Shown here piece after piece: positions 375 through 5,748 of a stretch of DNA of 5,759 nucleotides. Origin of the DNA: Candidatus Firestoneibacteriota bacterium. GTDB taxonomy: Bacteria; JACRDZ01. The position numbers were made by a program, and so were the translations under genes. The notes below the pieces were generated by a model. It ran no database searches and had not been told where the DNA came from. It was given only the letters and a program-made list of their open reading frames with translations. Location: NCBI GenBank assembly GCA_016212735.1, contig JACRDZ010000241.1, positions 1 to 5,759 on the forward strand. Direction: 5' to 3'. Every line of letters starts with the position of its first letter. The first letter of the stretch is position 1.

Positions 375-662
375 ATGGTAAATATGACACTAAGAAATAT
401 ACCTGAAGACATTATTGATAAAATTAAGATATTGTCCGTTTTGGAAAGGCGAAGTATGAATAGCGAAATTTTAGTAGTTTTAGAGAAAGGATTAAAAGAA
501 GAGACAATGATTGATGAACAATCAGAAAAGATTATAAATCCGGAGATCCAGATTAAAATTTGGGAAAATTTATGCGGGAAATGGAAGGACAAGAGGTCAA
601 CAGAAAAAATTATTGATAACATTATATCAACAAGGTCAAAAGGGAGAAAAGTAGAATTATGA
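375..662 (+). CDS. vapB: Ribbon-helix-helix antitoxin, FitA/VapB type
   Basis: This 95-residue protein has two parts. Residues 3-43 have the ribbon-helix-helix layout: a short strand NMTLRNIP, helix A (EDIIDKIKILSVL) and helix B (MNSEILVVLEKGL). This is the DNA-binding fold of FitA/Arc-like antitoxins, which typically begin 'MANLTIRNLP'. The C-terminal part (about 62-95), with WKDKRSTEKIIDNI and a basic-acidic tail GRKVEL, resembles the toxin-binding tail of VapB proteins. It should neutralise the PIN toxin and repress the operon through the inverted repeat just upstream. The start at 375 is set by GGAG at 366-369, 5 nt upstream. An in-frame ATG at 384 is a possible alternative but is spaced too far from this site. 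The TGA stop overlaps the toxin start (ATGA at 659-662), indicating translational coupling. The family call is firm. The exact subfamily (VapB or FitA) is less so. Confidence 0.88.
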   Translation: MVNMTLRNIPEDIIDKIKILSVLERRSMNSEILVVLEKGLKEETMIDEQSEKIINPEIQIKIWENLCGKWKDKRSTEKIIDNIISTRSKGRKVEL

Positions 663-1051
663 TTTTACTCGATACTGATGTTTGTATAGAATTACTGCGC
701 GGGAATAAAAAAGTTATTGAGTACAGAAAAAAAACAAAAGACCTGATTGCTGTATCATTTATGACAGTAGCTGAATTATATTATAGTGCGGAGAAATCCG
801 GAAATAGGGATAAAAACATCGGATTAATAGAAGAATTTTTATTGACTGTGAAAATTATACATTCCAATATAGCCGTTTTAAGAAAATTTGGTGAATTGAA
901 AAATGATTTAAAAAAAACAGATAATTTAATAACAGATGCGGATTTATTAATAGCATCCAGTGCTGTTATTAAATGTGACAGGTTGATAACAGGAAATGTC
1001 AGGCATTTTAGCAGATTTGGAGGATTGAAAGTTGAAAATTGGATACATTAA
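659..1051 (+). CDS. vapC: PIN-domain endoribonuclease toxin, VapC/FitB type
   Basis: This 130-residue single-domain PIN protein has the usual VapC length. VapC toxins are Mg2+-dependent RNases that cut tRNA or rRNA and stop translation. The acidic active-site set is visible: D5 (and D7) in ILLDTD, E39 in TVAEL, and D93 and D95 in TDADLLIASSA. N113 in 'ITGNVRHF' and the terminal 'GLKVENW' are typical of the family. All expected catalytic residues are present, so the toxin looks active. Its start overlaps the antitoxin stop by 4 nt, and it has no strong Shine-Dalgarno sequence of its own, so antitoxin is made first and toxin by coupled translation. No terminator follows, so transcripts could continue into the barrel gene 48 nt downstream. 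The RNA target cannot be read from the sequence. Confidence 0.93.
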   Translation: MILLDTDVCIELLRGNKKVIEYRKKTKDLIAVSFMTVAELYYSAEKSGNRDKNIGLIEEFLLTVKIIHSNIAVLRKFGELKNDLKKTDNLITDADLLIASSAVIKCDRLITGNVRHFSRFGGLKVENWIH

Positions 1052-2931: not shown

Positions 2932-2959
2932 ATTATAGCATAATATATATATTTGTCAA
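2932..2959 (-). promoter_or_regulatory. Sigma-70 promoter of csp with extended -10
   Basis: On the minus strand, a perfect TTGACA (2959-2954) and a perfect TATAAT (2937-2932) are separated by 16 nt, and the -10 is preceded by TGC, an extended -10 element. The spacer is mostly alternating A and T, with (AT)5 at 2943-2952. Transcription should start near 2925. This strength of consensus suits an abundantly expressed cold-shock protein. Confidence 0.85.
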
Positions 2960-3014: not shown

Positions 3015-3058
3015 AAAAATTTGTGGATTTTGTCAGCATAGTATAATTGGGGGAACAA

Positions 3059-3784
3059 ATGTTAGAAACTAATGATTTAATAGAGCAGAGAATTCAGAAA
3101 TTAGATAAATTGAGAAAAGAAAATGTCAATCCATATAAAAATAAATATATTATTACTCATAAAGCAATAGAAATAATAAATAAATTTTCTCAAGTTAAAA
3201 CAGGAGAAGAAGATAAAACAGAGATTTCAACAGCTGGAAGAATAATGGCATTACGTAAACATGGAAAAAGTTGTTTTGCTCATATTGAAGATGCTACAGG
3301 TAAAATTCAGATTTATATTAAACAGAATAAATTAGGTAAAGAGAGTTTTGATTTATTTGATAATACAGTAGATATAGGTGATTTTATTGGTGTTACAGGT
3401 TGTGTTTTTCGTACAGGGACAGGTGAACTTACATTATTTGTAAATACATTTACTCTATTAACAAAGTCATTACATCCATTACCTGAAAAATGGCATGGAT
3501 TAAAAGATAAAGAAACAAGATATCGACAGCGTTATGCAGATTTAATAGTGAATTCCGAAGTAAAAGAAGTGTTTTTAATGCGCAGTAAGATAATAACTTT
3601 AATGAGGAAGTTCTTTGATGACAGGAATTTTCTGGAAGTTGAAACTCCTATGATGCAGCAAATCCCTGGAGGAGCTACAGCACGTCCGTTTGCAACTCAT
3701 CATAATGCGCTGGATATTGATCTTTATTTACGTATTGCTCCTGAGCTGTATCTTAAAAGGCTTGTTGTTGGTGGTCTGGAGTAA
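3059..3784 (+). CDS. lysS: LysRS N-terminal fragment: anticodon-binding domain and motif 1
   Basis: This is the part of lysS translated before the stop, 241 residues from ATG 3059 to TAA 3782-3784. It contains the N-terminal helix ([20 protein letters not shown]), the OB fold (about 55-140) that reads the tRNA anticodon, and the first part of the class II catalytic domain with dimer-forming motif 1 (FLEVETPMM). ATP-binding motifs 2 and 3 are missing, so alone it could bind tRNA-Lys but could not charge it. An in-frame TTG at 3047 would add four residues but would use up the purine-rich ribosome site at 3049-3055, so ATG is preferred. Confidence 0.75.
3782..3784 (+). other. In-frame ochre codon inside lysS
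   Basis: TAA follows GAG (Glu241) and is directly followed by GTG (Val243) and G-starting context (TAA-G). The flanking protein, GGLE then [12 protein letters not shown], lines up with the unbroken bacterial consensus '[17 protein letters not shown]', so exactly one residue is replaced. TAA is the normal stop of at least five other genes in this window, which argues against a reassigned code. Confidence 0.9.
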
Positions 3785-4516
3785 GTGTATGAAATTAACC
3801 GCAATTTTCGCAATGAAGGTCTATCACAGAGACATAATCCGGAATTTACCATGATGGAATTATACCAGGCTTATGCGAATTATGAAGATTTAATGATTTT
3901 AACAGAAGACGTTCTATGTTATATAGCACAGAATACTTTAGGAAAATTGATATTTGATTATCAGGGAAATAGTATTGATCTAACTCCTCCATGGCAGAGG
4001 CTCAGTATGGAAGAAGCTATTAGAAAATATACAGGAGAGGATCCATTAAGCCCTGGTCTCCTGGAAAAAGTTAAAGATAAACTTGGAGCAGAAACACGGT
4101 CTGCTTACGTTAAAAAGATAGTATTTGAAGAATTAGTAGAAAGTAAACTGATTCAACCTACTTTTATAATTGATTACCCTGTAGAACTTTGTCCATTAAC
4201 TAAAACAAAGGAAGATAACCCTCTTATAGCAGAACGGTTTGAGCTTTATATTAGTTCCTTTGAAATAGCGAATGCTTATTCAGAGTTAAATGATCCTATG
4301 GAACAGAAAAACAGGTTTCTGAAACAGGTAGAAGAACGTAATGCTGGTGATACTGAAGCACACATGATGGATGAAGATTTTATCCGAGCCCTGGAATATG
4401 GAATGCCTCCAACAGCTGGGCTTGGTATAGGTGTTGATAGACTGGTAATGCTTTTAACTAATTCAAGCTCAATCAGAGACGTAATATTTTTTCCACATAT
4501 GCGTCCAGAAAAGTAA
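3785..4516 (+). CDS. lysS: LysRS C-terminal fragment: catalytic motifs 2 and 3
   Basis: This is the part of lysS after the stop: 243 codons without another stop, ending at TAA 4514-4516. It carries motif 2 (NRNFRNEG), which contacts ATP and the acceptor stem, the lysine-pocket stretch [12 protein letters not shown], and motif 3 ([23 protein letters not shown]). A GTG at 3785 directly after the stop could act as a restart codon. GGAG at 3778-3781 is too close for an ideal ribosome site, while GGTGG at 3770-3774 is at a workable distance. It is a single-frame continuation of the upstream fragment. The intact motifs mean the interruption is recent, tolerated or artefactual. Confidence 0.75.
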
Positions 4517-4533: not shown

Positions 4534-5748
4534 ATGCTTTCTTTTGAATTATTTGTAGGTTTTCGTTATCTTAGAGCCAAACAAAAACGGGCTTTTATCT
4601 CCTTAATTACTTTTATTTCTATTGGTGGTGTCAGTCTTGGTGTTATGGTACTTATAACTGTACTTGCAGTCATGAATGGTTTTGAAAAAGATATGCGTAA
4701 TAAAATTCTTGGTACTATGGCACATATAACTATATTTAAACAGAGAGAAGAAAATTTTAATGAATATCCTGAAGTAATATCGCGAATATCAAAAACTTCT
4801 CATGTAGTAGCTTTAACTCCATTTGTTCTTGCTCAGGCAATGCTGCAATCTTCAAGCGGATCTATGGAAGGAGTAGTAGTCCGTGGTATTGATGCTGTTC
4901 AGGAAAGCGCTGTAACGCAGATTAAAAAAAATCTTATTGAAGGCAATCTCAATCTTGAAGATAATGGAATTTTAATCGGGATAGAACTTGCATATAAATT
5001 AGGATTAAAGCTTGGAGACAAGATATTGATAATATCAAAAGTTGTACAAACTCCAATGGGACTTATGCCTCGTTCTACAGAATTTAAAGTAGTAGGTATT
5101 TTTCAGACAGGTATGTATGAATATGATACAGCTCTATCCTATATTTCTTTAAAAATGGCACAAAAATTATATGGCATGGGAAATAGCATTACAGGGATTG
5201 AAGTTAAACTTGATGATATTTTTAAAGCTGAAAAAATATCAACTTTATTGCAGAATGAATTACGTTATCCTTACTGGGTTAGAAGCTGGGTGGATATGAA
5301 CAGAAATCTTTTTTCAGCACTTAAACTGGAGAAGATTACGCTTTCTATAATTCTTACATTTATTGTACTTGTTTCTGCTTTTAATATTGTTAGTACTCTT
5401 ATTATGGTTGTGATGGAAAAAACATGTGATATAGGTATATTAAAAGCTATTGGAGCTACACAGAAAAGTATTGCTAATATATTTCTTCTTGAAGGATTTA
5501 TTATCGGAGTCATAGGAACTGCAATTGGAACAATCGGAGGAGTGCTGCTTTCCTGGGCTCTGGATAAATATCAGTTTATTAAACTTCCTGGTGATGTATA
5601 TTACATAGATACCTTACCTGTAGAAATGCGATTCCTGGATATTTTATTAATAGGCATAGCAGCTATTACAATAAGTTCTCTTGCTGCACTATATCCGGCA
5701 TGGCAGGCATCACGTTTGGATCCGGTTGAAGCTTTAAGGTATGAGTAA
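4534..5748 (+). CDS. lolC: Lipoprotein-releasing ABC transporter permease, LolC/LolE family
   Basis: This is a complete 404-residue inner-membrane permease of the type that, with the LolD ATPase, pulls mature lipoproteins out of the inner membrane and hands them to LolA. It has the expected layout: a cytoplasmic start (FELFVGFRYLRAKQKRAFIS), TM1 (about 21-48, with SIGGVSLGVMVL), a MacB-type periplasmic domain (about 50-265), then the FtsX domain with TM2 (about 268-293), TM3 (about 314-344) and TM4 (about 366-388). The coupling segment EKTCDIGILKAIGAT after TM2 contacts LolD. The ending YPAWQASRLDPVEALRYE is the usual family C-terminus. AAGGA (4522-4526) sits 7 nt before ATG 4534, and the gene begins 17 nt after lysS, so the two are probably one operon. 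Outside gamma-proteobacteria a single LolC/E-like protein often acts as a homodimer (LolF). No second permease is visible here. Confidence 0.92.
   Translation: MLSFELFVGFRYLRAKQKRAFISLITFISIGGVSLGVMVLITVLAVMNGFEKDMRNKILGTMAHITIFKQREENFNEYPEVISRISKTSHVVALTPFVLAQAMLQSSSGSMEGVVVRGIDAVQESAVTQIKKNLIEGNLNLEDNGILIGIELAYKLGLKLGDKILIISKVVQTPMGLMPRSTEFKVVGIFQTGMYEYDTALSYISLKMAQKLYGMGNSITGIEVKLDDIFKAEKISTLLQNELRYPYWVRSWVDMNRNLFSALKLEKITLSIILTFIVLVSAFNIVSTLIMVVMEKTCDIGILKAIGATQKSIANIFLLEGFIIGVIGTAIGTIGGVLLSWALDKYQFIKLPGDVYYIDTLPVEMRFLDILLIGIAAITISSLAALYPAWQASRLDPVEALRYE

Follow-up and report, generated by a model that had tools for sequence, protein, structure and literature searches.

The window, i.e., the whole stretch of 5,759 nucleotides that was analysed, contains eight frames (Table 1), one of which, lysS, encodes a class II lysyl-tRNA synthetase (LysRS) and carries a TAA in the middle of its reading frame. 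The lolC-like gene starts 17 bases past the lysS end, and the two genes likely form one operon. Upstream of lysS, the nearest curated models for the VapC-like gene are those of tRNA(fMet)-specific VapC, with scores below their cut-offs. A terminator-like hairpin of 16 pairs (2607–2642) lies between the convergent 159-base frame and cold-shock gene, and a promoter-like site matching the consensus at 12 of 12 positions (2932–2959, minus strand) is found upstream of the latter. Promoter-like sites are not in excess between 2380 and 4700 (11 versus a shuffle mean of 10.8), and the window contains neither Rfam families nor tRNA genes.

Table 1. Genes and features of the window, with the parts of the interrupted lysS frame.
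Feature	Position	Strand	Remarks
LolA-like gene, 3′ end	left edge, cut by window		ends TGA
Ribbon-helix-helix antitoxin-like gene and overlapping VapC-like PIN gene	375–1051		end TGA and TAA, respectively
DUF1302 protein gene	between VapC-like gene and 159-base frame		ends TAA
159-base frame	convergent with cold-shock gene		ends TAA
Cold-shock gene	between 159-base frame and lysS	−	ends TAA
lysS, class II lysyl-tRNA synthetase	3059–4516	+	485 codons plus stop, one interruption
N-terminal lysS part, residues 1–241	3059–3781	+	OB-fold domain 57–134, start of catalytic domain 150–241
GGTGGTCTGGAG, Shine-Dalgarno-like	3770–3781	+	encodes Gly238-Gly239-Leu240-Glu241
In-frame TAA, codon 242	3782–3784	+	Arg/Lys in 112/120 listed relatives
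C-terminal lysS part, residues 243–485 and terminal TAA	3785–4516	+	opens with GTG directly after TAA
lolC/lolE-type lipoprotein-release permease, intact	4534–5748	+	TIGR02212, 399.7 bits (cut-off 362.45); ends TAA

The lysS frame is that of an otherwise complete synthetase. With the ATG at 3059, preceded by GGGGG, taken as the start (a TTG at 3047 is an earlier alternative in frame), the 486 codons contain only two stops, codon 242 and the terminal TAA at 4514–4516, as the sequence-only reading had claimed when it described a full-length frame broken once and open elsewhere. The N-terminal part matches PF01336 (3.8e-14) and PF00152 (2e-27), and the C-terminal part PF00152 (1.7e-61); together they match the LysRS model PRK00484 at positions 1–238 and 240–488, so that a single model position is absent. 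The gene therefore has the OB-fold and the class II core that fit the bacterial LysRS model, and its chain is interrupted at one point. Also borne out is the claim that the class II motifs are intact, motif 1 lying in the N-terminal part and motifs 2 and 3 in the C-terminal part: residues P197, F250, R251, N252, E253, G454, G456, G458, and R461 are all present, and they are invariant in a 10-row alignment.

What relatives have at the position of the TAA is, judging from the alignments, a basic residue in most cases and not an invariant one. Among the 120 full-length relatives listed, residue 242 is Arg in 63, Lys in 49, Gln in 5, Met in 2, and Ser in 1, which agrees with the earlier statement that the stop replaces an Arg or Lys; in DNA, where 83 of the 88 fetched lysS loci extend over this codon, the residue is Arg (45), Lys (35), or Gly (3). 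An in-frame stop occurs in the aligned part of none of these 88 loci, 85 of which align over at least 90% (L016 and L086 represent a single locus). Phe250, Arg251, Asn252, and Glu253 are invariant among the 120 listed relatives, which places the TAA nine codons ahead of the arginine of motif 2, just as had been proposed. The three closest listed proteins (P0001–P0003), which are 76, 75, and 74% identical to the read-through product over 99–100% of the query and two of which are labelled Candidatus Poribacteria and Candidatus Desantisbacteria, all have Arg at this residue; the next listed proteins fall to 63% identity. The source organism is therefore probably a member of the wider kin of that group, with an AT-rich genome. 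An AAA-to-TAA change had been put forward as the simplest origin. A one-step origin from Lys is indeed possible, but it is not favoured: the nearest three relatives carry Arg, every codon for which lies at least two changes away from TAA, so that a single step presupposes an earlier replacement of Arg in this lineage.

Nothing on either side of the stop suggests decay. When conserved columns are defined by at least 95% agreement among the 117 more distant listed relatives, the window protein differs at 2 of 130, one among the 64 that precede the stop and one among the 66 that follow it, while the 117 relatives themselves, each left out in turn, differ at a mean of 1.0 and a maximum of 6. P0001 and P0002 differ at exactly these two columns, and P0003 at one more; both deviations being shared with P0001 and P0002, nothing private is broken before or after the TAA. 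Private differences, i.e., departures from a residue that the other three close proteins share, number 16 of 164 before the stop and 21 of 182 after it (Fisher p 0.61), and the share that falls after the stop is slightly higher in the window (21:16, after to before) than in the three relatives pooled (25:33; p 0.21). P0001 is identical at 180 of 241 residues ahead of the stop and at 184 of 243 beyond it. The losses of conserved residues, frameshifts, and multiple stops of a decayed pseudogene are thus missing from this frame, which is continuous and has one stop, and the earlier observation that the 243 downstream codons are undecayed holds. The part after the stop is, as far as these comparisons indicate, under normal constraint still, or was until very recently. 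A chimeric junction at the stop was considered as a cause and rejected, identity to P0001–P0003 being alike before and after. Separately, codon usage in lysS breaks some 240 bases upstream of the TAA, where third-position GC jumps near codon 163 from 15 of 160 codons (3059–3547) to 84 of 325 (3548–4513), a contrast reached in 4 of 5000 permutations that kept the amino acids fixed; lolC (297/2000) and the DUF1302 gene (1570/2000) have no comparable break. The shift in lysS could reflect an old recombination within the gene or a join of two strains.

Because the rest of lysS looks healthy, the TAA most probably reflects a mistake in the sequence or a private and transient mutation, and not a novel mode of decoding; we give a probability of roughly 70% to its being a wrong base in the consensus or else a nonsense variant that arose very recently and is not fixed in the sampled population. 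The gene would then be an ordinary housekeeping class II lysS bearing one nonsense codon with no role in decoding, the record would probably be an environmental assembly that lacks deep support, and the living population would have a functional, full-length LysRS. Of the single substitutions possible in the window's 1762 sense codons, about 5.4% create stops, so one base error could account for the TAA, and a scan hunting for oddities would pick out such a case. A point against this explanation is that the TAA lies at least two base changes from the Arg of the nearest three relatives; Lys, although common at residue 242 in the family (49/120), is missing from those three.

The TAA allele rests on a single record. 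Protein-database searches, which scored roughly 8000 candidates sharing most words with the query, were expected to yield an intact close copy with the full-length query and a broken one with the halves, and the 120 proteins listed for each include no close copy of either kind, the best identities being 76% for the read-through protein and 60 and 61% for the halves; the window's own lysS fragments are not among the listed matches either. With nothing listed closer than this, the TAA has no independent support. A scan of genome contigs with the queried lysS half gave no stretch above 62% among the best 80 of 593, a plasmid collection gave 23 records, all at 60–80% and none spanning 80% of the query, and viral contigs gave no match to the exact flanks with the codon masked and one stretch matching a LolC pattern, which encodes no relative. 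Our literature search found no report of a natural nonsense codon in a bacterial lysS, its matches concerning mitochondrial disease, Charcot-Marie-Tooth disease, and genetic code engineering.

The other options that had been listed next to a base-call error, namely a recent mutation with a backup synthetase, suppression, and a split enzyme, form a sound list, and they fare differently. The first of them, in which the nonsense mutation is real, fixed, and very recent, another LysRS (class II lysS or class I lysK) is present, and the window lysS is a young pseudogene, is unlikely, even though a preserved frame free of decay suits a very young event and both LysRS classes co-occur in some bacteria, Bacillus cereus and B. 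thuringiensis being the examples given in PMC2916919. A spare copy is rare in what could be sampled. No genome of the nearest group was usable as a centre, so the rates come from two phylum samples that were drawn around unrelated centres, are not close kin, and provide a rough prior only: two class II matches at E 1e-80, a threshold that would miss a diverged second LysRS, occur in 1 of 262 matching genomes (299 searched) and in 1 of 271 (285 searched), 37/299 and 14/285 genomes having no match at this threshold. The matches listed are at most 62% identical to the window lysS and have no internal stops. None of 58 genomes yielded a class I LysRS, the control being positive in 4 of 14 named genomes. 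Gene order argues in the same direction. In 34 of the 88 fetched loci (L016 and L086, the same locus, are both counted), the next gene on the lysS strand within 400 bases is lolC-like, while 33 have room but no lolC, 16 have too little room, and 5 are unclassified; the window lysS, sharing this recurrent housekeeping context, looks like the main copy. The synthetase gene and the lipoprotein-release gene appear to be a conserved pairing. The 34 loci, found between L002 and L088, are mostly labelled as Deltaproteobacteria and its groups, with one Omnitrophota. The backup option thus keeps its place on the list and loses likelihood to the lolC context and to the rarity of a second LysRS.

A genuine, fixed TAA combined with a working enzyme, through either a restart at the GTG or leaky decoding of UAA, is improbable; were it so, this would be an unusual case, in which an essential synthetase consists of two pieces or depends on leaky decoding. 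The second route, in which a near-cognate tRNA or an ochre suppressor decodes the UAA at codon 242 and some full-length enzyme is made, has quite a low probability. The TAA is followed by G, whereas the strong UAAU signal has U there, and misreading of UAA by tRNA-Gln in Escherichia coli and by tRNA-Lys in yeast is cited in PMC5289835, which also describes UAA as the stop with the least read-through. Natural suppression, with a feedback loop through tRNA-Lys, had been entertained in the sequence-only reading. It finds no support in the window, where tRNA genes are absent, the seven other frames are free of in-frame stops (the one at the left edge being cut), and TAA ends six of the eight frames; positive evidence for locally leaky decoding thus appears to be missing from these letters. 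If leaky decoding were true, the level of LysRS would depend on the charged tRNA that LysRS itself produces.

A split LysRS, in which ribosomes stop at the TAA and begin anew at the GTG next to it (3785), so that one chain with the OB-fold and motif 1 and another with motifs 2 and 3 are made and assemble, is a long shot. The GTG adjoins the TAA in frame behind a purine-rich stretch, and conservation is kept in both halves. However, Gly238 and Gly239 are found in 120 of the 120 listed relatives (Glu241 in 107), so the Shine-Dalgarno-like letters are explained by protein conservation; moreover, their GGAG lies just 3 bases from the GTG, and the seven other starts used in the window are ATG. A structure model based on 25 of the 120 listed relatives places the break between a predicted helix (228–237) and a predicted strand (242–247), which would make a split structurally not absurd, but the model is weak (mean pLDDT 75, pTM 0.62, residues 251–253 under 50). 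In a fold search with this poor model, the top 50 listed matches were all LysRS, with TM 0.52–0.57 and an rmsd of about 14–15 Å. Relatives speak against a split as well: the nearest three are full length, although the length limits of that search precluded it from showing split ones, and 5 of the 120 listed C-terminal fragments start at the residue that the GTG encodes, two of these having Met there, while 4 of the 120 listed N-terminal fragments end within 240–244, none at 241. LysRS fragments that end or start near residue 242 can come from contig edges or gene callers. Two C-terminal fragments from other organisms (P0130 and P0188) have Met exactly at the residue after the stop position.

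Finally, a genome-wide reassignment of UAA to an amino acid, which has nothing in its favour beyond codon 242, is negligible in probability and is contradicted by the window's own gene ends, TAA terminating vapC, the DUF1302 gene, the 159-base frame, the cold-shock gene, lysS, and lolC, and by the statement in PMC8629427 that every known bacterial stop reassignment concerns UGA. The marks of an alternative code, i.e., a UAA that does not terminate or that recurs at sense positions, are absent from the window. The 290 bacterial stop codons for which PMC8629427 also reports an inferred amino acid are unvalidated candidates.

We therefore return to a base error or an unfixed variant as the preferred reading of codon 242, and a nonsense codon seen in one record of an otherwise healthy essential gene is best taken as a warning, to be verified in the reads before anything is built on it. 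The window gene resembles the single nonsense errors and young nonsense alleles of draft assemblies, having likewise one stop, a clean frame, no decay, and no independent copy. Compared with known class II LysS (NCBIfam PRK00484/TIGR00499), its two halves fit the model end to end, each falling short of the curated cut-off of 468 bits (338 and 351 bits). The solved LysRS structures 3a74 and 3e9h from Bacillus stearothermophilus are relatives, 3a74 aligning over window residues 3–482. From full-length class II LysS, the nearest three listed being 74–76% identical, the window gene differs by a single in-frame TAA at codon 242.
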